A DNA stretch of 64,000 nt from Cellulomonas xylanilytica (GTDB lineage Bacteria; Actinomycetota; Actinomycetes; Actinomycetales; Cellulomonadaceae), in contig NZ_BJUB01000001.1 of NCBI RefSeq assembly GCF_007989805.1, positions 62,001 to 126,000 on the forward strand. Direction: 5' to 3'. Below the pieces are notes generated by a model. That model made no database searches. It saw nothing but the letters and a program-made list of their open reading frames with translations, and was not told the origin of the DNA. Of the stretch, positions 1 to 40,919 are shown piece by piece; position 1 is the stretch's first letter, and each line of letters opens with the position of its first letter. Made by a program: the position numbers and the translations under genes.

Positions 1-1
1 C

Positions 2-2782
2 GCCCAGACGGTGCCGTACCTGCTGACCAACCGGACAGGGGCCAACCCCGTGGCGTCCTACGCGTTCATCACCGTGCCGGCGCTCGGGTTCTTCCGGCCC
101 GTGCCCCGGCCGAAGGCCCCCGAGCTGCGCGTCGCGTCCGGCGAGCGCCTCGTCATCCCGCTCGGCGAGCAGGTCCAGGTGGCTCCCGGGCGCACCGCGC
201 GGATCGCCGACTCCCTGGGTGTGTCCGCGACGCGGTCCGACGGCACGAGCCCGATCGTGGACGACGAGACCCTGCAGTTCACGTCGGCGCCCGGGTACGC
301 CGGACCGGCGTCGATCACCGTCCCCGTCACCGACGCGTCCTCCCCGGGCGACACGTCCGCCCGGACGTCCGTCATCACGCTCCAGATCACGGTGTACGCC
401 GTCGACGACTACCCGCCGACGTTCGAGCCGTCGACCATCGACGTGGCGCCCGGGGAGCCCGCGCTCGCCGTGGACCTCCGGTCCTTCACCACCGGGCCGG
501 AGGGGGCGAACCCGACGGACGGCCGCTACGCCTACACGCTCGTCTCAGCGATCCCGGCCGGGTTCTCGGGCGCGATCACCGACGGCGTGCTGAGCATCGC
601 GGCGGACGCGACGACGCCGAAGGGTCGCAACGAGACGCTGGCCGTCCGGGTGGGTTACGGCCGCACGGGCTCGTTCGAGACGTCCATCGGGGTCCGGGTC
701 ATCGCCAGCACGCGGCCGACGGCGCGCGTGGTCGACCGCACCATCGACGGGGTCGAGGGACGGCAGAGCACCGTCGACGTCCTCGAGGGTGCGTTCAACC
801 CGTTCGCGCCCGACCCGATGACCGTCGTCGGCGCCACGGTCGAGACGCCCGGTGCGGGCACCGCCGGGGCGACGGCCAGCACCGTGAGCGTGCGGCCGGC
901 CGAGGGGTTCATCGGCCAGATGGTCACGCGGTTCCGCGTCCGGGACGTCACGGGCGACCCGGACCGCGAGGTCGAGGGTCGCGTCACCGTCGTCGTCCGC
1001 GGCAAGCCCGCCACGCCGAACGCCCCGCGGGTCGGCGAGATCCGGGACCGGACCGTCGTGCTGTCCTGGGACGCGCCCGACAACCGCGGCGCGCCGATCA
1101 CCGGGTACCGGGTCGTCGCGAGCCCGGGCAACCTCGTGCGGCAGTGCGCGAGCACGACCTGCACGATCGACGGCCTGACCAACGACGTCGAGTACACCTT
1201 CACGGTCGCGGCGCAGAACGAGGTCGACTGGTCGGAGCCGAGCGGACCGTCCGCCCCGGCACGACCCGACGCGGTCCCGGACGCGCCGTCCGCACCGACG
1301 CTGGACTTCGGCGACGGCTCGGTCCGGGCGACGTGGCCGGCGCCCGCCTCGGCCGGCTCGCCGATCACCAGCTACACGCTCGAGATCTCGCCCGCGCCGC
1401 CGGCCGGGCCGTCCTCGGTCACGTCCCCGACGACGAGCTACACGTTCTCCGGCCTGCGCAACGGCACGGCGTACTCCGTGCGCGTGCGCGCGCACAACAA
1501 GGCGGCGGAGCCCAGCGGCTGGTCGCCGTCGTCGCAGCCCATGGTGCCGGCGGGCGTGCCGGAGGCCCCGCTGAACCTCACCGCGCTGCGCGCGGAGACC
1601 ACGCTCGGCGGCCAGATCAACGTGGCCTGGACGGAGCCGGACGGGAACGGTGACCGGGTCACCGGGTACGAGCTGGTGATCTCCGGCGGGCCGAACTCCC
1701 GCACGGTCCCGTTCGAGGGGACGGGGACGACGTCGTACGCGTTCACCGACGCGGCCAACGGGGCGCCGTACCAGTTCTCGGTCCGGGCGAGGAACAAGGC
1801 GCCGGGGTGGTCGGCACCGGCGGTCACGACGGCCTCCACCTACGGTGTTCCGGCGGCGACCACGATCACCTCCGCGGTCGGCGCCCCCACGGCCGAGCCC
1901 GGCGACGGCAGCGTGCGGGTCGTCTGGGCCAGCGCCGACCCGAACGGCTCCCCGGTCACGTCCTACCGGCTGTTCGTGAACGGCACGGACATCGGCGACG
2001 TGGGCACGGGCACGTCCCGGGACGTGGGCGGGCTGACCGGCGGTGCCGACGCCACGTTCCAGGTGCAGGCGTGCAACGTGGCGGGCTGCGGCGAGTGGTC
2101 GGCGCCGCGGTCCGCGTCGCCGGTGCCGGTCACCAAGCCGTCTCCCGCGTCCGGCGTGAGCCTCGACGACCCTGCGCGCAACGACGACCGCCAGCCCACG
2201 TCGATCACCGCGCGGTGGGCGGCGACGAGCGCCTGGGGCGGCGGGTCCGGCACCGTCTACCGGGTCGACTTCTCCATCGACGGTGTCGTGACCGACACGC
2301 AGCGGGTGACGGGCCTGACGGCGACGTCCACCGCCAGCATGCCGACGCTCTCCTTCCTGCGGCGGTCCGCGACCTTCCGGGTCGTGGTCACTGCGGAGAC
2401 CTCGGCGGGCGCCTCGACGCCGGCACCGAGCGCGGACAAGGTCGTGCAGCGGGCGAGCGAGCCCGGGGACGTCGCCGACGGCTACGCCCTGACCGTCTCC
2501 GACGACGGGGCGTCCATCTCGTCCGACTGGGCCGACGTGCAGGACACGGGCGGCGCCGCGATCACGGGCTACCTCGTCCAGGTCAAGGTGGGCTCCGACG
2601 GCTGGGCGGACATGCCGACCACCGGGACGTCGCAGCTCAGCAACGCGCCGCTGCCCGCACCCGCCGCGCCCGGGACGGCGATCACCATCCGGGTCCGCGC
2701 CCAGAACCAGTTCGGTACCAGCCAGCGCTGGGCCCAGTCGGTCGAGGCCCGGGTGCCGGAGCCTCCTCCGGCCACCCCCTGA
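2..2782 (+). CDS. Surface protein with Ig-like and fibronectin type III repeats, 5'-truncated
   Basis: The reading frame is open to the left edge, so only the C-terminal 926 residues are visible. The first third is made of Ig-like or cadherin-like beta-sandwich repeats. The rest shows about six fibronectin III modules, recognisable by repeated 'W..P...G...I..Y.v' strands and proline-rich junctions. The end (VPEPPPATP) has no LPXTG motif and no C-terminal membrane segment, so any signal peptide or anchor must be in the missing N-terminus. A likely role is an extracellular adhesin or wall-associated scaffold, inferred from domain type only. It heads a run of six same-strand genes (MoxR, DUF58, transglutaminase-like, FHA, beta-propeller) with a 50-base gap to the next gene. 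Confidence 0.85.
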   Translation, partial: AQTVPYLLTNRTGANPVASYAFITVPALGFFRPVPRPKAPELRVASGERLVIPLGEQVQVAPGRTARIADSLGVSATRSDGTSPIVDDETLQFTSAPGYAGPASITVPVTDASSPGDTSARTSVITLQITVYAVDDYPPTFEPSTIDVAPGEPALAVDLRSFTTGPEGANPTDGRYAYTLVSAIPAGFSGAITDGVLSIAADATTPKGRNETLAVRVGYGRTGSFETSIGVRVIASTRPTARVVDRTIDGVEGRQSTVDVLEGAFNPFAPDPMTVVGATVETPGAGTAGATASTVSVRPAEGFIGQMVTRFRVRDVTGDPDREVEGRVTVVVRGKPATPNAPRVGEIRDRTVVLSWDAPDNRGAPITGYRVVASPGNLVRQCASTTCTIDGLTNDVEYTFTVAAQNEVDWSEPSGPSAPARPDAVPDAPSAPTLDFGDGSVRATWPAPASAGSPITSYTLEISPAPPAGPSSVTSPTTSYTFSGLRNGTAYSVRVRAHNKAAEPSGWSPSSQPMVPAGVPEAPLNLTALRAETTLGGQINVAWTEPDGNGDRVTGYELVISGGPNSRTVPFEGTGTTSYAFTDAANGAPYQFSVRARNKAPGWSAPAVTTASTYGVPAATTITSAVGAPTAEPGDGSVRVVWASADPNGSPVTSYRLFVNGTDIGDVGTGTSRDVGGLTGGADATFQVQACNVAGCGEWSAPRSASPVPVTKPSPASGVSLDDPARNDDRQPTSITARWAATSAWGGGSGTVYRVDFSIDGVVTDTQRVTGLTATSTASMPTLSFLRRSATFRVVVTAETSAGASTPAPSADKVVQRASEPGDVADGYALTVSDDGASISSDWADVQDTGGAAITGYLVQVKVGSDGWADMPTTGTSQLSNAPLPAPAAPGTAITIRVRAQNQFGTSQRWAQSVEARVPEPPPATP

Positions 2783-2832: not shown

Positions 2833-3789
2833 ATGACCCCCGAGCAGAGCACCTGGTTCGCCGAGACGTTCGACGCGCTCGTGTCCAACGTCGGGCTGGC
2901 GCTGCTCGGCAAGGAGCGCCCGGTGCGCCTGGCGCTCACGGCGATGGTCGCCGAGGGTCACCTGCTGCTCGAGGACGCACCCGGCACCGGCAAGACGTCG
3001 CTGGCCAAGGCGCTCGCCGCGACCGTGCAGGGCAGCCACCACCGGATCCAGTTCACGCCGGACCTGCTGCCGTCCGACGTCACGGGCGTCACGATCTACG
3101 ACCAGAGCACCCACCGGTTCGAGTTCCACCCCGGGCCGATCTTCGCCTCCGTCGTCCTCGCCGACGAGATCAACCGGGCGTCCCCGAAGACGCAGGCGGC
3201 CCTGCTGGAGGTCATGGAGGAGGGCCAGATCACCGTCGACGGCGTCACGCACCCCGTCGGCCGCCCGTTCATGGTGATCGCGACGCAGAACCCCATCGAG
3301 CAGGCGGGCACCTACCGTCTGCCCGAGGCGCAGCTGGACCGGTTCCTCATCAAGACGTCGCTGGGCTACCCCGACCGCGCGTCGACGATCGAGATCCTGG
3401 CCGGGGCGAAGGACCGCACGACGAACCTGACCCCCCGGATCACGACGCAGGCCGTGGGCACGCTGGCGGACCTCGCGCAGACCGTGCACATCGACGAGGT
3501 CGTGCTCGACTACGTGGCCCGGCTCACGGAGGCGACGCGCGACGACTCGCAGACTGCCATCGGGGCGAGCGTGCGCGGGGGTCTGGCGCTCGTGCGGACC
3601 GCGAAGGTGTGGGCCGCGGCGGCCGGGCGCGAGTACGTGATCCCGGACGACGTGAAGGAGCTCGCCCAGCCCGTCCTCGCGCACCGGCTCCTGCTCGACA
3701 CCGAGGCGGAGTTCGCCGGCGTGACGGCGATCGAGATCCTGGCCCGGATCCTCGAGACCACCGCGCCGCCGGCCGTGCGGGTGGGCTGA
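2833..3789 (+). CDS. MoxR-family AAA+ ATPase
   Basis: This 318-residue protein has a Walker A motif (DAPGTGKT, residues about 48-55) and a Walker B/sensor region (VLADEINRASPKTQAALLEVMEE-like block) characteristic of MoxR ATPases, which act as chaperone-like ATPases and are nearly always paired with DUF58 or VWA proteins. The length is typical. The start was set at the ATG whose product begins MTPEQSTWF; the longer open frame upstream runs antiparallel in codon usage and lies inside the preceding gene. The downstream DUF58 gene begins 2 bases after the stop, so the pair is surely co-transcribed. The substrate is unknown; the neighbouring membrane and surface proteins are the obvious candidates. 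Confidence 0.93.
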   Translation: MTPEQSTWFAETFDALVSNVGLALLGKERPVRLALTAMVAEGHLLLEDAPGTGKTSLAKALAATVQGSHHRIQFTPDLLPSDVTGVTIYDQSTHRFEFHPGPIFASVVLADEINRASPKTQAALLEVMEEGQITVDGVTHPVGRPFMVIATQNPIEQAGTYRLPEAQLDRFLIKTSLGYPDRASTIEILAGAKDRTTNLTPRITTQAVGTLADLAQTVHIDEVVLDYVARLTEATRDDSQTAIGASVRGGLALVRTAKVWAAAAGREYVIPDDVKELAQPVLAHRLLLDTEAEFAGVTAIEILARILETTAPPAVRVG

Positions 3790-3791
3790 CC

Positions 3792-4940
3792 GTGGGTCTG
3801 CGGGTCTCACCGCTCGGTTGGGGGGCCGCCGCCGTGGCGGCCCTCGGTCTCGTGCTGGGCCGGTGGTTCGGGTGGCTGGAGCTCGCGGCGCTCGGTGCGG
3901 GGCTGACGGCCGTGGTCGCGGTGTCGCTGCTGATGACCGTGGGCCGGGCCCGCTACGCCGTGACGCTCGACATGGCCGACCGTCGTGTGAAGGTGGGGGA
4001 GCGCGCCCTCGGCCGTCTGGAGGTGCGCAACGTCGCGCGCCGCCGGTCGCTGCCCTCCCGGATCGAGCTGCCCGTCGGCGCGGCCGTCGCGGAGCTCGCG
4101 GTGCCGGCGCTCGGACCCGGTGCCGCGCACGACGACCTGTTCGCGATCCCGACCACGCGCCGCGCGGTCATCGTCGTCGGTCCCGTCCGCTCGGTGCGCG
4201 GGGACCCGTTCGGGCTCGTGCGACGCAGCGTGCGGTGGACCCGGCCGGCGGAGGTGTTCGTGCACCCGCTCGTCGTGTCCCTCGCCGGTGCGAGCGCGGG
4301 CCTCCTGCGCGACCTGGAGGGTCAGGCGACGCGCGACCTGTCGGACTCGGACCTCTCGTTCCACGCCCTGCGCGACTATGTCGCAGGAGACGACCGGCGG
4401 TACATCCACTGGCGCACGACGGCGCGCCGCGGCAGCCTCATGGTCAAGCAGTTCGAGGACACCCGGCGCACGACGACGGCGCTCGCCCTGGCCACCGACC
4501 CGGCGGACTACGCGGACGACGACGAGCTGGAGCTCGCGGTGTCCGTCGTCGCCTCCGTCGGCGTCCAGACGATCCGCGAGGAGCGGGACCTCGTGGTGCT
4601 GGCCGGCCCGGGCAGGCTGCGCGCGGAGACCCCGCCGCTCCTGCTCGACGACTGCTCCGGGGTCGCGCTGTCGAGCGCGGGTGCGCCCGTGACCCTGCTG
4701 GGCCGCCGCGTCGTGCGCGAGGCGCCGGAGGCGTCCGTGGCGATGCTGGTCACCGGCTCGGTGCCCGGCGACGCCGAGCTGCGGCTCGGCGCCCAGCACG
4801 TGCCGGCCGGGACGCGCACCGTGGTCGTGCGGTGCGAGCGCGGCGCCGACGTGTCGGTGCGGACGCAGGGCTCGCTGAGCCTCGCGACGATCGGCCGCCT
4901 CGACGACCTCCCGCGGCTGCTGCGGCGGGTGACCGCGTGA
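3792..4940 (+). CDS. DUF58-domain membrane protein
   Basis: This 382-residue protein starts at GTG 3792, two bases after the MoxR stop. Two hydrophobic segments lie at about residues 10-55, followed by a soluble region. The DUF58 signature is clear at about residues 189-228: a RDYVAGDDRRYIHW block followed by TARRGSLMVKQFED. DUF58 proteins are membrane-tethered partners of MoxR ATPases with a VWA-like fold. The gene overlaps the next start by four bases (GTGA at 4937-4940), which indicates translational coupling to the transglutaminase-like gene. No catalytic function is assigned to this family with certainty. Confidence 0.92.
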   Translation: MGLRVSPLGWGAAAVAALGLVLGRWFGWLELAALGAGLTAVVAVSLLMTVGRARYAVTLDMADRRVKVGERALGRLEVRNVARRRSLPSRIELPVGAAVAELAVPALGPGAAHDDLFAIPTTRRAVIVVGPVRSVRGDPFGLVRRSVRWTRPAEVFVHPLVVSLAGASAGLLRDLEGQATRDLSDSDLSFHALRDYVAGDDRRYIHWRTTARRGSLMVKQFEDTRRTTTALALATDPADYADDDELELAVSVVASVGVQTIREERDLVVLAGPGRLRAETPPLLLDDCSGVALSSAGAPVTLLGRRVVREAPEASVAMLVTGSVPGDAELRLGAQHVPAGTRTVVVRCERGADVSVRTQGSLSLATIGRLDDLPRLLRRVTA

Positions 4941-7207
4941 CACCCCGACCCGCCCGCCGCGCCGCGGTCGACATCGTCTGTCTCGTCGGCGTGCTCGCCT
5001 TCGTTCTGGTGCCTCTCCTCGAGGTGTACGGCGGGCTGACGGCGCTGCCCGCGCTGGCGGGTGGTCTGCTGCTCGGCACGTCGGTGGCGGTGCTCGGTGC
5101 GGTCCGGCGCTGGTCGGCGATCACGGTCGTCGCGGCGGTCGTCGTGGTGTACGTGGTGGCCGGCGGGGCGCTGGCTGCACCGGGGACCACGCTCGCCGGG
5201 GTGGTGCCCACCCCCACGACCGTCGTGGACCTCGCGCGCGGCGCCGGCTCGACCTGGAAGCAGCTGCTGACGCTCCAGCCGCCGGTCGGCTCGGAGGGCA
5301 CGCTGCTGGTCGCCGCCTACCTGCTGGCGCTCGTCGGGTCCTGCCTCGCCGTGTCGGTCGCCCTGCGTGCACGCACCGGTGCCGCGGCGGCGTCCGCGGC
5401 TCTCGTGCCGGTGGGGGTGGCGATCGCGACGATCGTGCTCGGCACCCGGCGCCCCATCGTCGACCCGGTCCTGACCGGCGTGGTGCTCGTGGTCGTCCTG
5501 CTGCCCTGGGCGGCGTGGCGGGCCGGGGTGCTGCGGGCCCGGCGGGTGGTCGCGACCGGCGTCCTCATGGGCGTGGCGGTCGGCGCCGGCGTCCTGGGTG
5601 CCCCGGTGGTGGCGGGCGGGACGGAGCGGCTCGTCGTGCGCGACGAGATGGTCCCCCCGTTCGACCCGCGTGACTACCCGAGCCCGTTGTCGGCCTTCCG
5701 CAAGCTCGTCAAGGACGACGCCTCCCTGTTCACGGTCTCCGGCCTGCCCGACGGGGCGCGCGTCCGGCTGGCGACGATGGACCGGTACGACGGCGTCGTC
5801 TGGAACGTGGCGGGGGACGGGTCCGCGCAGGCGTCCGGCGAGTTCCGCCGCGTCGGCTCCGAGATCGACACGACCGTCCGGGGTGAGCGCGCGCGCGTCG
5901 AGTTCACCGTGCAGCAGCTCGACGGTGTGTGGCTGCCGACGGTCGGTCAGGCCACGGCGTTCGACATCGCCGACCCGGACGCGGCCGGCGACCTGCGCTA
6001 CAACGACGCCACCGGTGGGGCGGTGCTGACCGGGGGCGTGCACGAGGGGCTCGAGTACGGCATCGACGTCGTCGCGCCGCGCGTGCCGGCGGCGACGGAG
6101 GTGGGCAGCGCGCCCGCGGCCGACATCGCCCAGCCGCCGCTCGTCGGCCAGCCGGACGCCGCCGCGGTGACTGCTGCCGACGTGGCGCGCGACGCCGGCA
6201 GCCCGGTGCAGATCAGCGAGGCGCTGGAGACGTGGCTCGCCGAGGAGGGCTACTTCAGCCACGGTGTCGACGTCTCGGGCACGGAGTCGCTGTCCGGCCA
6301 CGGAGCCGACCGGATCACGGCGCTGCTCGGCGGCGACCTCATGGTGGGTGACGGCGAGCAGTACGCCGCGGCGATGGCGCTCATGGTCCGGGAGATGGGT
6401 CTGCCGGCGCGGGTCGTGCTCGGGTTCGTCCCCGGGGCGGACGGCGAGGACGGCCCTGCGGATGGGCCCGTGGAGGTCACGGGCAAGGACGTCCAGGCAT
6501 GGGTCGAGGTGGCGTTCCAGGGCTACGGCTGGCTCCCGTTCGACCCGACGCCGCCCCCGGAGCAGACGCCGCAGGAGGAGGACCAGGAGAAGCCCTCCGA
6601 GCCGAACCCGCAGGTCGTGCAGCCGCCGCCGCCGCCGCCCGGTGCCGTCACGCCGCCGGACGAGGACACCGAGCAGCCCCAGACCGACGACCCGGACGAG
6701 ACGACCGACGGCAGCGCGCTGTTCTGGCGGATCGCCCGCGTGGCCGGGATCGTCGCGATCCCCGTGCTCGTGCTCGCGCTCCCGCTGCTCGTCGTCGTCG
6801 CGCTGAAGGCCCGGCGCCGCCGCCGTCGTCGCCGCAGCCCCGACCCGGTGGCCCGGGTCGCGGGCGGCTGGGACGAGGTGCTGGACACCGCTCGTGACCT
6901 GCGCCGCCCGGCCGGTGCGCTGGCGACGCGCAACGAGTCGGCCCGTGAGCTCGCCGCGTCGTTCGCCGACGCCCCCGGGGGTGCGCTGGTCGCCACCCGG
7001 GTCGGCGCGCTCGCGCGGTCGGCGGACCACGCCGTGTTCAGCGCCGGCGAGCCGAGCGGCGCGCACGCCACCGCGTACTGGGCCGACGTCGAGCAGACCG
7101 TCGCCGCCATGACCCGCAGCGTGGGCTGGCGTCGGCGCGTGCGCGCCCGCGTGTCGACCGCCTCCCTGAAGAACCACCGCAACCGCCGCCCGAAGGGCAC
7201 GTCATGA
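4937..7207 (+). CDS. TgpA-like membrane transglutaminase homologue lacking catalytic Cys and His
   Basis: This 756-residue protein has several membrane segments in residues 10-230, an extracytoplasmic transglutaminase-like core (about 430-540), a proline-rich linker, a further membrane helix near 600-620, an Arg-rich stretch and a cytoplasmic DUF4129-like tail. This is the layout of TgpA/DUF3488 proteins found beside MoxR and DUF58. The catalytic motif normally reading G-x-C-x-x-F/Y-A reads GDGEQYAAA here, putting Gly473 in place of Cys. The normal HAW motif reads VQAW, putting Gln520 in place of His. Only the Asp of FDPTP (Asp536) remains. It is therefore probably not an active transglutaminase and may bind peptides or act structurally. 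It overlaps both neighbours by 4 bases. Confidence 0.9.
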   Translation: MTPRPARRAAVDIVCLVGVLAFVLVPLLEVYGGLTALPALAGGLLLGTSVAVLGAVRRWSAITVVAAVVVVYVVAGGALAAPGTTLAGVVPTPTTVVDLARGAGSTWKQLLTLQPPVGSEGTLLVAAYLLALVGSCLAVSVALRARTGAAAASAALVPVGVAIATIVLGTRRPIVDPVLTGVVLVVVLLPWAAWRAGVLRARRVVATGVLMGVAVGAGVLGAPVVAGGTERLVVRDEMVPPFDPRDYPSPLSAFRKLVKDDASLFTVSGLPDGARVRLATMDRYDGVVWNVAGDGSAQASGEFRRVGSEIDTTVRGERARVEFTVQQLDGVWLPTVGQATAFDIADPDAAGDLRYNDATGGAVLTGGVHEGLEYGIDVVAPRVPAATEVGSAPAADIAQPPLVGQPDAAAVTAADVARDAGSPVQISEALETWLAEEGYFSHGVDVSGTESLSGHGADRITALLGGDLMVGDGEQYAAAMALMVREMGLPARVVLGFVPGADGEDGPADGPVEVTGKDVQAWVEVAFQGYGWLPFDPTPPPEQTPQEEDQEKPSEPNPQVVQPPPPPPGAVTPPDEDTEQPQTDDPDETTDGSALFWRIARVAGIVAIPVLVLALPLLVVVALKARRRRRRRRSPDPVARVAGGWDEVLDTARDLRRPAGALATRNESARELAASFADAPGGALVATRVGALARSADHAVFSAGEPSGAHATAYWADVEQTVAAMTRSVGWRRRVRARVSTASLKNHRNRRPKGTS

Positions 7208-8373
7208 CACGTCACGGATCCCACGTGCACGACCCGTACTCGGGCGGGGACGACCTGTCGCCCGCGACCCTGGCCCGGCGCCTGTCCGCCGGCCTGCTCG
7301 ACCTGGCGCTGCTCCTGGTGCTCGGCGGCGTGCTGGTGGTCGTCGGCCTGTCCCGGGGCAGCGGCGCCCTCGTGGCGCTCGGCTGCGCGTCCCTCGTCGT
7401 GGTGTCGGTGGCCCAGTGGGTCGCGCACGGGTGGACGGGATCGACGCTCGGGCGCCGCGCGGTCGGCATCCGTACGCTCGACGTCGAGTCGCGCACCCCG
7501 ATCGGCCTGCTCCGCGTCCTGCTGCGGGGCGCCGTGATCGCCGCCGGTGTGCTGGCGCTCGGTGTCGGGCTCCTCGTCGTGCTCGTCTCGCCGGCCTTCG
7601 ACCGGACCGGGCGGCGGCGGGGCTGGCAGGACCTGGCGGCCCGCGACGAGGTGCTGGACGTCCGGGGGGCGCGGCGGCCGGTGATCGTGCCGGCACGGGC
7701 GCGCCGCGCCGAACCCGACCCGGCGCCGCCGCAGCCCGCGGCACGTCGGCCCGTCACGGTCCCGGGCTGGGCTGTGGCCGAGCCCGGCAAGGACGGGACC
7801 GCGCTGCTCGACCTCCTGCTGGACGAGGCACGGCCGGCGGCGCTCGTGCTCGCGCCGCTGTCCCAGCAGCGCAGCGGACCCGACGTGGACACGCGCGCGA
7901 TCCCCGTGGTCCGTCAGGTCGGGCTCAGCTACGGGCTCGCCCCCGAGCTCGAGCTGACGCGCCCGGCCGGCCCCCGTGCGGACCTGCTCGCCGCACCGGC
8001 CCCGACCACCGCGGTCGACCGTGCGGCGGCGGAGATCGAGCTGGGCGACGGACGGCGCGTCACGATCGCCCGGACCGCGCTGGTCGGTCGCAACCCGGCG
8101 TCGGACGCTGAGGTGCAGCTGGTGCGCGTCGTGGACCCGGCCCGCTCCGTGTCCAAGACCCACCTCCAGATCGGGGTGGAGCCGGGCGGCGTCTGGGTGG
8201 CCGACCGTGGGTCGACGAACGGCACCGTCGTGACGCTGCCCGACGGTGCGCAGGTGGTGTGCCGCGTGGACCAGCAGGTGCGTCTCCGGGTGGGGTCGAC
8301 GGTGACGTTCGGCGACTGCTCCCTTCGGCTGGTCCGCTCTCCCGGCCAGGACCGCCAGGACCCCGTGGCCTAG
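7204..8373 (+). CDS. RDD-domain membrane protein with C-terminal FHA domain
   Basis: This 389-residue protein starts at ATG 7204, overlapping the previous stop (ATGA). Residues about 20-145 form an RDD domain with hydrophobic helices and the typical S-T-L-G-R-R-A-V-G-I-R segment. After a Pro/Arg/Ala-rich linker comes an FHA domain at about residues 280-365, with the conserved Gly-Arg (VGRNPASD, near 292), Ser-x-x-His (SKTHLQI) and Asn-Gly (STNGT) residues that read phosphothreonine. RDD-FHA fusions occur beside MoxR/DUF58 clusters in actinobacteria. It probably docks a phosphorylated partner at the membrane; no kinase is inside the window, so one may lie to the left. Confidence 0.9.
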   Translation: MTRHGSHVHDPYSGGDDLSPATLARRLSAGLLDLALLLVLGGVLVVVGLSRGSGALVALGCASLVVVSVAQWVAHGWTGSTLGRRAVGIRTLDVESRTPIGLLRVLLRGAVIAAGVLALGVGLLVVLVSPAFDRTGRRRGWQDLAARDEVLDVRGARRPVIVPARARRAEPDPAPPQPAARRPVTVPGWAVAEPGKDGTALLDLLLDEARPAALVLAPLSQQRSGPDVDTRAIPVVRQVGLSYGLAPELELTRPAGPRADLLAAPAPTTAVDRAAAEIELGDGRRVTIARTALVGRNPASDAEVQLVRVVDPARSVSKTHLQIGVEPGGVWVADRGSTNGTVVTLPDGAQVVCRVDQQVRLRVGSTVTFGDCSLRLVRSPGQDRQDPVA

Positions 8374-8382: not shown

Positions 8383-9837
8383 ATGGCGGACCGGCGCCCC
8401 GCTGCGCGGATGCAGCTCGTCGAGGTCGAGGACGCCCCGACAGCGGCAGCACTGCCGCGCCCGCCGGACGACCTGCCCCGGCACGACGCCGCGGTCACGC
8501 AGGGGCCGCCCCGGCCGCGCGCGCGGCTGCTGCGCAGGTGGTGGCCCGTGGCGGCGGTCGTCGTGCTCGTCGTCGTCGTGTCGGGTGTGGTGTCCGCCGC
8601 GCGGGACCGTGCGTTCGTCGCACGCATCGCGGCGGTGCCGGGCCTGGTCCGTCCCCTCGACGCGGCGCCCGAGCCGCTGTGGGAGACCCGGGGGTCCACG
8701 CTGCCGGGCACGATCCTCGCCGCCGACGGCGCGCTCGTCGTGCTGGAGGGTGGCGACCGGGCCTGGACCGTGACGTCGCACGACCCGACGTCCGGCGAGC
8801 GGCGCTGGGCGGTGGACGTGGCGCCGGTGTCGCGCGCCGGGTTCGAGGCGACCGCGGCGGTCTGCCCCCCGCTGCGCGGTGACGTCGGCGAGCTCGTGGT
8901 GTGCCTGGTCCGGCATCCCCGGGTGCTCTACTCCGACGAGGCGTCGATCCAGGAGATGCCGCGGATCATGGTGGTACCGGTGTCCGCGCAGGACGGCGAG
9001 CGCCTGGGGGAGTGGCAGGTCCGCGGGGAGCTCGTGGCCTTCGACCGCGTCGAGGACGACCTCGTCATCGGCACGCTCGACGCCGAGGGCCGGATGACGG
9101 TGCAGCGGCGCGACGCCCGGACGGGGGACGTGGTCTGGTCGGTCGTCACGTCGGTCGTCATGAACGACCCGGTGATCAGCGTCGCGGCGACGATGCGCGT
9201 GCTGCCCCCGCTGGTCGTGCTGGACGGTGGCGCCACGATCGTCCTCGACGTCGACGACGGCAGCACCCTCATGACGGGACCGCGGTTCGGCGGGCTGCAG
9301 GTGGCCGCCCTCGGGGACCGGTTCGCCACGTGGGCCCCAGTCGGCGGCGGGCGCGTCCACGACGCCGACGGCACGGCGCTGTTCGAGGTGGCGGGCCTGC
9401 CGGCGCAGCTGTCGGCTGATGACGGCTCCGAGGCCGGCACGATCATCGTCGACGAGGGGTCGCAGGTGTCCGGCGTGGATGCGGCGTCCGGCGCGCCGAG
9501 GTGGCGGACCCCGTCTTCCCTCGACCCGCGCCTGCTCGTGTCCGGCAGGCTGGTGATGTCCGGCGCGGACCGGTACGGCGTGCTGGACGCCACGGACGGC
9601 TCCACGGTCTGGGACGTCGACACCGGCGACGTCCTCGCGTGGGACCCCGTCTCGGACGGCACGCTCGTGATCGGTCCCGGCACGTCCCCGGACGGCAGCC
9701 CCGAGCTGTGGGGACTCGGGCTCGAGGACGGGGTCCGGTACTGGGCCGTCCCCCTGCCCGAGGGGGTCCGTCGGGTCGACGCCGTCGGCGGCCACCTCGT
9801 CGTGCGGACCGAGAGCGACCTGATCGTCTACGGCTGA
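8383..9837 (+). CDS. Membrane-anchored PQQ-like beta-propeller protein
   Basis: The 484-residue product has a charged, Pro-rich cytoplasmic N-terminus, one membrane helix at about residues 50-70 (WWPVAAVVVLVVVVSGVV) and a large extracytoplasmic region of repeating W-x-x-D/T-x-x-G-x-x-x-W strands typical of PQQ-like (YncE/BamB-type) beta-propellers. The role is probably a protein-interaction scaffold in the wall zone; no cofactor site can be assigned. It follows the FHA gene by 9 bases but also has its own candidate -10 hexamer six bases before the ATG, so it may be transcribed separately as a leaderless mRNA. Confidence 0.85.
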   Translation: MADRRPAARMQLVEVEDAPTAAALPRPPDDLPRHDAAVTQGPPRPRARLLRRWWPVAAVVVLVVVVSGVVSAARDRAFVARIAAVPGLVRPLDAAPEPLWETRGSTLPGTILAADGALVVLEGGDRAWTVTSHDPTSGERRWAVDVAPVSRAGFEATAAVCPPLRGDVGELVVCLVRHPRVLYSDEASIQEMPRIMVVPVSAQDGERLGEWQVRGELVAFDRVEDDLVIGTLDAEGRMTVQRRDARTGDVVWSVVTSVVMNDPVISVAATMRVLPPLVVLDGGATIVLDVDDGSTLMTGPRFGGLQVAALGDRFATWAPVGGGRVHDADGTALFEVAGLPAQLSADDGSEAGTIIVDEGSQVSGVDAASGAPRWRTPSSLDPRLLVSGRLVMSGADRYGVLDATDGSTVWDVDTGDVLAWDPVSDGTLVIGPGTSPDGSPELWGLGLEDGVRYWAVPLPEGVRRVDAVGGHLVVRTESDLIVYG

Positions 9838-40112: not shown

Positions 40113-40919
40113 TCAGCGCAGGGCGACCAGACCGGTGCCGTCGTCGGCCGGCAGCGCAGCGGGCACGGAGTGGACGGCCGCCGTCACCGTCATCGCGCGG
40201 ATCGAGAGCTGGCCGCCGTAGTACGACAGGAACGCGGTGTCGGTGGCGTCGCGGCCGGTCGCGATCCGGACCAAAGAGCCTCGCGGTGCCAGCCGGGTGG
40301 CGTCGACCACGTGCCAGGCGCCGTCGACGTAGGCCTCGGCGACCGCGTGGAAGTCCATCGGCTTGAGGCCCGGCGCGTAGACCGACACGAGGCGGGCGGG
40401 GACGTCCTTGGCGCGCAGCAGCGCGACGACGAGGTGCGCGAAGTCCCGGCACACCCCGCGGCGCTTGAGCAGGGTGTCGGTGGCACCGTCGGTCGGCAGG
40501 CTGGAGCCCGACAGGTACGTGACGTGGCCGGTGACCCACGCGACGACGGCGTCGAGCAGCTCGGGTCCCTCGATGCCCCGGAACTGGTCCCGGGCGAACG
40601 CGAGCAGGCGGTCCGACTCGGCGTAGCGGCTGGGCCGGCGGTACTCGACGAGGTCGACGTCCTCGACGGGCGGCAGGTCGCTCTGGCCCGTGATGGTGGC
40701 CTGGTAGTCGACGACCAGGCGGCCCGCGGGGGACAGCACGCGGTGCATGCGGCCGCCGTGCGCCATCTTGATCTCGGCGACGTCCAGGGCCCCGTCCTCG
40801 TGGCGCACCGAGAGGATCTCGGAGCGGTCGTAGGCGCCGTCCGCGACGGCGACGGAGAGCAGGATCTCGAGCGGGTTGCGCACGTCCAGGGACAGGTGCG
40901 AGGTGACGGTGCGCAGCAC
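40113..40919 (-). CDS. Transglutaminase-like cysteine protease family protein, catalytic triad intact
   Basis: The 268-residue soluble protein has an N-terminal beta domain (bacterial transglutaminase-like N region) and the transglutaminase core with Cys157 (RGVCRDFAHL), His191 (MDFHAVAEAY) and Asp206 (VVDAT), the full triad. Such proteins often act on peptides or in ammonia-ligase clusters, but no partner is next to it. GTG 40919 was chosen because AAAGGA lies nine bases upstream; ATG 40943 would add eight residues. It is convergent with dnaG, with only four bases between stops. Confidence 0.9.
   Translation of the reverse strand: MLRTVTSHLSLDVRNPLEILLSVAVADGAYDRSEILSVRHEDGALDVAEIKMAHGGRMHRVLSPAGRLVVDYQATITGQSDLPPVEDVDLVEYRRPSRYAESDRLLAFARDQFRGIEGPELLDAVVAWVTGHVTYLSGSSLPTDGATDTLLKRRGVCRDFAHLVVALLRAKDVPARLVSVYAPGLKPMDFHAVAEAYVDGAWHVVDATRLAPRGSLVRIATGRDATDTAFLSYYGGQLSIRAMTVTAAVHSVPAALPADDGTGLVALR

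Follow-up and report, generated by a model that had tools for sequence, protein, structure and literature searches.

A TgpA-like protein without the catalytic cysteine in an actinobacterial PFNA-type operon: clade-wide loss of the transglutaminase triad and a new conserved motif at its former site

The PFNA operon of Bifidobacterium comprises pkb2, fn3, aaa-atp, duf58, tgm, prpC, and fha and has been proposed for host sensing; in the accessible parts of the papers describing it, the tgm product is labelled either a putative transglutaminase or a presumed cysteine protease and has a place in models of how bifidobacteria signal in response to the host (PMC6803598, PMC8430577). TgpA of Pseudomonas aeruginosa (PA2873; PDB 6g49), a membrane protein with a transglutaminase domain, carries a catalytic triad and has measured in vitro activity, according to the available portion of PMC3507681. 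LapG and DvhG, as far as the available sections of the reports go, are transglutaminase-like cysteine proteases with a Cys-His-Asp triad that cleave giant surface adhesins under cytoplasmic control (PMC13090378, PMC4359373); in DvhG, Asp316 and Glu318 flanking Cys317 form a predicted calcium site and are required for activity (PMC13090378), and in LapG, calcium is likewise placed next to the triad (PMC4359373). The DNA analyzed here, referred to as the window, is a stretch of 64,000 nucleotides from Cellulomonas xylanilytica (contig NZ_BJUB01000001.1; G000:C1:62001-126000 of the 4.44-Mb assembly). Its open reading frame (ORF) at 4937–7207 on the forward strand starts with GTG and encodes a TgpA-like polytopic membrane protein of 756 residues, a homolog of tgm, which lacks the catalytic cysteine, as does every examined member of the branch to which it belongs.

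Residues 413–537 of this protein match Transglut_core (PF01841) above the cut-off, with an expect value (E) of 2e-16, and this is its sole Pfam domain at E 0.01. Among solved structures, TgpA (PDB 6g49) alone is convincingly related in sequence, being recovered at E 5.4e-8 in a single-protein search and at E 2.6e-22 with a profile, the latter match running across the periplasmic domain. In the alignment, the Cys, His, and Asp of TgpA fall on Gly473, Gln520, and Asp536, so that there is no Cys-His-Asp/Glu triad; the two substitutions had been proposed in an earlier sequence-only reading of the window and are borne out, their codons having been checked. The only cysteines of the protein, Cys15 and Cys136, both lie inside predicted N-terminal membrane helices, and therefore no shifted Cys can complete the triad. 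A Kyte-Doolittle scan together with the translation agrees with the membrane topology and proline linker of that reading: the N-terminal hydrophobic segments are followed by a large outer region, the proline-rich linker, a single further segment, and an Arg-rich tail (Table 1). The DUF4129-like tail claimed at the same time found no support, as DUF4129 (PF13559) is not listed by Pfam even at E 10; this absence says little because the Cys-bearing TgpA encoded elsewhere in the same genome itself fails to reach the cut-off (E 0.0038), and DUF4129 does not separate the two proteins. TgpA_N (PF11992) is likewise below the cut-off (E 5.2); among other PFNA-type proteins, it is absent from L186 and passes the cut-off in L163 and L211.

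Homologous loci were gathered by a pattern scan of contigs and by whole-protein searches of an order sample (198 genomes) and a class sample (148 genomes), with a phylum sample searched in the same way and kept apart from the counts below; in these searches, no more than a few first-look candidates were scored in each genome. In all, 120 stretches of up to 20 kb from other genomes and nine from the own genome were fetched. A profile search of the ORFs in these loci gave 267 matches, corresponding to 224 distinct domains once identical ones were merged, and these were split by motif into 196 PFNA-type, 15 TgpA-type (GYC/GFC), 11 other non-Cys, and two other Cys-bearing domains, with L121 of the own genome placed by hand in the other non-Cys group (AWPE, TgpA_N-type context). 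Three order-sample places of at least 93 bits were left out (G079:C85, G135:C1, and G168:C110, the last of which stops short of covering the Cys column), and in the class sample, 20 places were taken as long loci, others entering the analysis if a short locus came with the search result.

Scored over the 196 PFNA-type domains, the Cys column contains Gly (80), Asp (62), Glu (19), Ala (18), Ser (15), and Gln (2), with Cys in none; the His column is mostly Gln (63), Thr (39), His (30), Glu (16), or Ser (13); and the Asp column is Asp in 119, Phe in 28, and Tyr in 18, with others making up the rest of both. The immediate surroundings are nearly fixed, with Gln475 in all 196, Glu474 in 195, and Asp or Asn at 472 in all 196 (Asn in 19). 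All 15 TgpA-type domains keep Cys and His together with Glu (14) or Asp (1) at these positions, and the alignment is thus considered to register the site. The statement of the sequence-only reading that only Asp536 remains is therefore correct for the window protein but not as a family trait, given that only 119 of 196 have Asp there. The forms GDxEQYAAAxALM and DVxAW that it had named for related actinobacteria are real, and the retention of both Cys and His among homologs of the cluster, which would have spoken against it, was not encountered: Cys is absent throughout, and His520 occurs only together with Asp473 (30/30). What it had termed a conserved non-catalytic subfamily stands as far as the loss of Cys is concerned (0/196 overall and 0/115 in the order sample); the absence of all catalysis is something we infer from sequence.

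In the order sample, 102 of 198 genomes, distributed over 13 family codes, carry 115 PFNA-type genes, none with Cys, which rules out an isolated oddity of Cellulomonas. The residue at 473 tracks lineage, being Asp in 8/8 genes of family code f17 and Ser in 11/11 of f4. The f4 genomes, which we take to be Bifidobacteriaceae-like on the strength of a genus primer, match that primer exactly in 10 of 14 cases, compared with 0 of 8 for others; 11 of the 14 match the window protein, nine of these 11 carrying the primer site, and all 11 copies read GDSEQYA, lack His520, have Tyr or His at 536, and sit behind FN3-MoxR-DUF58 (FN3, fibronectin type III). Outside the class, the phylum sample contains two strong matches, L285 (GNGEQYA) and L286 (GFEEQYA), both without Cys and not counted among the 196, and a weaker one, L288 (GNSEQFA); the site of L287 was not resolved by pattern, and the remaining readable loci bear Cys. 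Among 96 non-redundant PFNA-type members, 83 have no Cys anywhere in the transglutaminase core, and 13 do, never beside the motif: nine have a close, disulfide-like Cys pair, and four have one lone Cys, located in the helix that follows the motif. A Cys pair, possibly a disulfide at the dead pocket, lies shortly before the His column in L207, L208, L210, L211, L214, L263, L264, L269, and L272.

The ratio of nonsynonymous to synonymous substitution rates (dN/dS) was estimated among eight Cellulomonas sequences and is 0.16–0.20 between the window gene and its six close orthologs (0.12–0.21 for the transglutaminase core) and 0.31 with the seventh. These values point clearly to purifying selection, and with the intact frame, they uphold the earlier statement that the gene is not decaying. 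A quick tree was built from 115 rows (114 plus the window protein) with columns 472–474, 520, and 536 removed, after 126 rows had passed a diversity filter and 12 had been dropped by hand, including short or partial ones and three members of the other non-Cys group. In this tree, which is not rooted by an outside group, has support from the Shimodaira-Hasegawa-like approximate likelihood-ratio test (SH-aLRT) only, and contains two flagged long branches (L232 and L213), one branch (SH-aLRT 100) sets all 96 PFNA-type rows apart from the rest and another (99) does the same for the 13 Cys-bearing TgpA-type rows, such that the Cys state requires a single change. Since TgpA of another phylum has Cys, we infer Cys to be the ancestral state. 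The loss of an essential residue, fixed in a clade under purifying selection, is the pattern by which pseudoenzymes are recognized.

The former active-site region appears to have come under new constraint, comprising column 442, GHxxxR, G[DN]xEQ, and AWxE. In the 96 PFNA-type rows, Gly454 (96), His455 (93), Arg459 (95), Gly471 (95), Asp/Asn472 (96), Glu474 (95), Gln475 (96), Trp522 (96), and Glu524 (96) are invariant or nearly so, and column 442 is His in 64, Asp in 21, Asn in nine, and Ser in two. The 13 TgpA-type rows instead have Tyr442 (13) and Tyr or Phe472 (13), with His455 in one, Arg459 in none, Glu474 in five, and Gln475 in nine, and share Trp522 and Glu524 (13/13 each), which are common to both classes. 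On account of these counts, the columns adjoining the lost nucleophile vary less than their counterparts in Cys-bearing rows and hold different residues, and the site looks rebuilt, with a novel, nearly fixed motif of [H/D/N]442, GHxxxR (454–459), and G[DN]xEQ (471–475).

The tight coupling to MoxR, DUF58, and FHA genes noted in the sequence-only reading holds base by base, as the GTG at 4937 overlaps the DUF58 stop codon (4938–4940) and the ATG of the RDD-FHA gene at 7204 overlaps the tgm stop codon (7205–7207); the cluster further extends upstream and matches the PFNA operon. The giant surface gene has its start at G000:C1:58636, outside the window on the upstream side, runs to about 2,050 codons in total, encodes an N-terminal hydrophobic anchor followed by Big_9 (5.5e-50) and fn3 (2.2e-48) matches (L118:8462-14779), and overlaps with its ATG the stop codon of a Ser/Thr kinase gene (Pkinase, 2.4e-39), which is accompanied upstream by an FHA frame and a PP2C phosphatase gene (PP2C_2, 4.3e-11). 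The kinase tail, by reading, has a hydrophobic segment and further residues. Hence, the FN3 protein, MoxR, DUF58, and tgm follow one another on one strand, a kinase with an outer part precedes fn3, and PP2C and FHA genes belong to the cluster. The Walker A and B motifs of MoxR appear intact by reading. A counterpart of the PQQ-repeat gene is found downstream in part of the Cellulomonas relatives. The C-terminal part of the kinase past its hydrophobic segment (L118:7100-8639) looks FN3-like or Ig-like by eye, with no Pfam match at E 0.001. Elsewhere in the window, another Transglut_core match (40299–40559, reverse strand) keeps Cys and His (GVCRDFA ... FHAVAEAY).

Table 1. Coordinates of the operon genes and of the tgm protein features in the window
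Feature	Coordinates	Strand	Basis
Giant Ig (Big_9)/cadherin-like/fibronectin-III surface protein, 3' part	1..2782	+	Pfam
MoxR-type AAA+ ATPase	2833..3789	+	Pfam AAA_3 5.9e-62, AAA_lid_2 2e-22
DUF58 protein, hydrophobic N-terminus	3792..4940	+	Pfam DUF58 1.6e-10; start GTG at 3792 assigned by reading
Pseudo-transglutaminase (TgpA-like, PFNA 'tgm' type)	4937..7207	+	Pfam, PDB 6g49 alignment, translation
Seven N-terminal hydrophobic segments (residues 10-222)	4964..5602	+	Kyte-Doolittle
FSHG (residues 440-443)	6254..6265	+	Alignment column 442
GHGADR = GHxxxR motif (454-459)	6296..6313	+	Alignment
GDGEQY (471-476) at the former nucleophile position; Gly473 = 6353-6355	6347..6364	+	Alignment
Gln520 at the catalytic His position, then AWVE (521-524)	6494..6496	+	Alignment
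Asp536 at the triad Asp position; variable across the family	6542..6544	+	Alignment
Proline-rich linker (about residues 540-590)	6554..6706	+	Translation
C-terminal hydrophobic segment (605-623), then Arg-rich start of the presumed cytoplasmic tail	6749..6805	+	Kyte-Doolittle
RDD membrane domain + FHA domain protein	7204..8373	+	Pfam RDD 6.5e-16, FHA 2.8e-9
PQQ/BamB-like repeat protein	8383..9837	+	Pfam PQQ_2 2.5e-10

This arrangement is conserved along with the protein. Where at least 6.5 kb of upstream sequence is available, 170 PFNA-type genes can be compared, and they are preceded by MoxR in 166 cases, DUF58 in 170, and an FN3 match in 147; the corresponding numbers are 8, 7, and 0 for eight TgpA-type genes and 8, 8, and 3 for nine other non-Cys genes with the same flank. 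Ordinary MoxR-DUF58-TgpA operons, such as that of the own genome, agree in the identity and order of the three core genes but differ in having Cys, His, and Glu/Asp, TgpA_N, no FN3 (0/8), and a more distant MoxR. The MoxR scores against the window MoxR, 313–618 bits for PFNA-type and 266–296 bits for TgpA-type loci, do not overlap, and separate paralogous operon lines fit for this reason. Nucleophile loss thus goes with a giant surface protein and signalling genes, an association that, because of its single origin, counts as a single observation. A difference in the DxSxS-type metal motif of DUF58, found by regular expression in 64/203 non-Cys and 0/8 Cys loci, was dropped as uninformative given the small Cys set and loose pattern.

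The own genome also contains TgpA-like paralogs. The Cys-bearing TgpA at C3:71254-73461 has its own MoxR-DUF58 and a detectable TgpA_N; another, a TgpA-like gene without Cys (G000:C1:392086-393624, reverse strand; L121:5988-8387), reads GNAEQYA, keeps DVHAWPE and FDPT, passes TgpA_N, and is also accompanied by its own MoxR and DUF58. Outside the PFNA clade, a second non-Cys group (L147, L213, L222, L223, L224, L225, L226, L227, L231, and L271) shows motifs such as GTSEQF, GTPDQF, GYVEQF, GTTEQF, and GYSEQH, mostly keeps AWPE, and has His455 in five of six aligned rows, L121 included. Its members lie mostly beside MoxR-DUF58, with sub-threshold fn3 matches in two upstream ORFs; L223 (G292), in which Ser replaces Cys and His and Glu are kept (GYSEQHA, QAHAWPE), has no MoxR/DUF58 match nearby.

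Taken together, loss of the Cys, loss or drift of the His and Asp, purifying selection, operon conservation, and a new motif in one branch suggest that the protein is a pseudo-transglutaminase acting as a non-catalytic receptor or docking domain, a reading to which we assign a probability of roughly 0.6; that thiol catalysis, considered alone, is absent is very probable. In the mechanism envisaged, a TgpA-related protein would have kept its extracytoplasmic transglutaminase domain, presumably still folded, and given up thiol chemistry in one PFNA-type branch. The former active site would then bind a ligand, for which the giant Ig/FN3 surface protein of the operon itself or a cell-wall peptide are the best candidates, possibly with a bound divalent metal, and the bound state might be passed through the membrane domain and tail to MoxR/DUF58 and to the kinase, phosphatase, and FHA proteins. 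The naming of the FN3/Ig protein as partner in such a docking or receptor role is tentative, with the odds somewhat against it.

Several points weigh against this interpretation. The PFNA class was set by a motif surrounding the Cys column, in which any residue was allowed at 473, and 77 of the 196 rows come from a contig scan whose patterns include the site motif, a bias at the site on account of which the order sample gives the fairer count. In the tree, the new motif and the Cys loss are coupled as one event, that is, an unreplicated correlation. The D-x-E arrangement is not universal, as L286 has Phe472, 19/196 have Asn472, and the other non-Cys group has mostly Thr. Asp-His-Asp in place of Cys-His-Asp is found at the three columns in 17/196, a subset that leaves room for other chemistry and argues against calling every member inert. 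Finally, for 23 of the 170 PFNA-type genes, BLAST gave no upstream FN3 match; 17 of these follow an upstream ORF of at least 1769 aa, and because the three of them that were scanned have Big_9 domains, the absence is partly a detection limit, but the other scanned misses gave PorA (L221), polyprenyl synthetase (L253), or nothing (L196 and L205).

Alternative readings differ in what they make of the same columns. If H/D/N442, His455, Asp/Asn472, Glu474, and Glu524, joined in some lineages by Asp473-His520-Asp536, formed a metal or acid/base centre, the site would be re-tooled for non-thiol chemistry, in keeping with the near-invariance of most of these columns in PFNA-type rows and their difference from Cys-bearing rows (Glu524 being common to both), with the His, Asp, or Asn at column 442 in 94/96 rows, and with the restriction of His520 to members with Asp473 (30/30). 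We regard this as quite unlikely, however, as columns 473 and 520 vary between families, which is odd for a catalytic pocket, and the 30 members with the Asp473-His520 pair may share it by descent. The domain might also be a mere scaffold without a ligand pocket, holding MoxR/DUF58 and the membrane part together. Cys-less superfamily members that are not enzymes, for example, the signalling scaffold menin and the Rad4-type DNA-repair domain, are described in the available part of PMC10318531, and columns of the membrane part and tail are conserved as well; the scaffold is nonetheless unlikely in view of the neighbors of the old nucleophile, which are tighter than in Cys-bearing rows (Glu474 95/96 versus 5/13, Gln475 96/96 versus 9/13).

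Regulation of a catalytic TgpA paralog in the same cell, as a dominant-negative partner or in a mixed oligomer, is conceivable in the own genome, where such a paralog exists, but G003, G019, G030, G068, G082, G110, and G197 have the pseudo form with no TgpA match at E 1e-3. This is suggestive, all first-look candidates having been scored only in G003, G082, and G110 and G030 being 88% complete, and it makes the regulator improbable. Decay of the gene could be read from the lost catalytic residues and from the one or two TGA codons reported inside the match in G031, G063, G077, G119, G133, G334, G424, and G434; these codons could arise because the match runs on into the following frame, through errors, or by decay confined to those places. 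Against it stand the presence in 102/198 genomes, dN/dS well under 1, near-invariant motifs, overlapping starts and stops, and the lack of a reported internal stop at most listed order-sample places; its chance is negligible for the family, and for the window gene, low dN/dS and an intact frame rule it out. Equally negligible is the chance that a displaced Cys/His pair makes the protein an active cysteine enzyme, the other finding that would have told against the sequence-only reading: 13/96 non-redundant members do have a core Cys, but these are disulfide-like pairs or single residues in the helix after the motif, the other 83 have none, and the window protein, without Cys in its outer domain, excludes it for itself.

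Compared with the Bifidobacterium PFNA operon as described in the accessible parts of those reports, the window has the same gene set, the same core order of FN3-MoxR-DUF58-tgm, and a polytopic tgm, and by gene content and order, its cluster is an actinobacterial version of that operon. It differs in the phosphatase, FHA frame, and kinase standing upstream of fn3, in a surface gene that is an Ig/cadherin/FN3 array unlike the bifidobacterial fn3, and in a tgm without the triad, as opposed to the transglutaminase or protease label. The operon and the domain family are thus already known; no report of a lost triad in the PFNA tgm family was found in a literature text search that reached few subscription journals and no supplementary alignments, and the clade-wide loss with a new conserved site, which did not turn up there, appears to be new. 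With TgpA (PA2873), the window protein shares the membrane helices, an extracytoplasmic Transglut_core, and a C-terminal helix, and it differs in lacking Cys and His and, by Pfam, TgpA_N. As the branch extends over 13 family codes without the requirements for thiol catalysis, activity-based thinking on tgm should yield to binding, for which the near-invariant GHxxxR, G[DN]xEQ, and AWxE provide named residues for testing and the own-genome Cys paralog a matched positive control.

The likeness to LapG and DvhG is that the Cys position is flanked by acidic residues: the G-[D/N]-x-E arrangement resembles the acidic flanks of DvhG minus the Cys, a likeness of positions only, set beside published descriptions rather than aligned sequences. 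The window protein is, in contrast, polytopic in the membrane and without a nucleophile, and the triad of LapG and the BTLCP family is absent from it. From what the available sections report, LapG-type enzymes show that a transglutaminase-like fold can dock giant adhesins, and by analogy, a Cys-less version could hold or sense one. It might then be speculated that tgm is a LapG without scissors, in which a metal-dependent clamp of [H/D/N]442, His455, [D/N]472-x-Glu474, and Glu524 holds, senses, or helps to display the giant Ig/cadherin/FN3 protein and is read out by MoxR-DUF58 and the kinase-phosphatase-FHA proteins; this extension is doubtful, and its metal part is slightly weakened by the Phe472 of L286. 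If true, it would represent a Gram-positive counterpart of adhesin-retention systems that relies on binding rather than cutting, and the operon with which bifidobacteria, in the portions of the literature available, are proposed to sense their hosts would be one instance of it.

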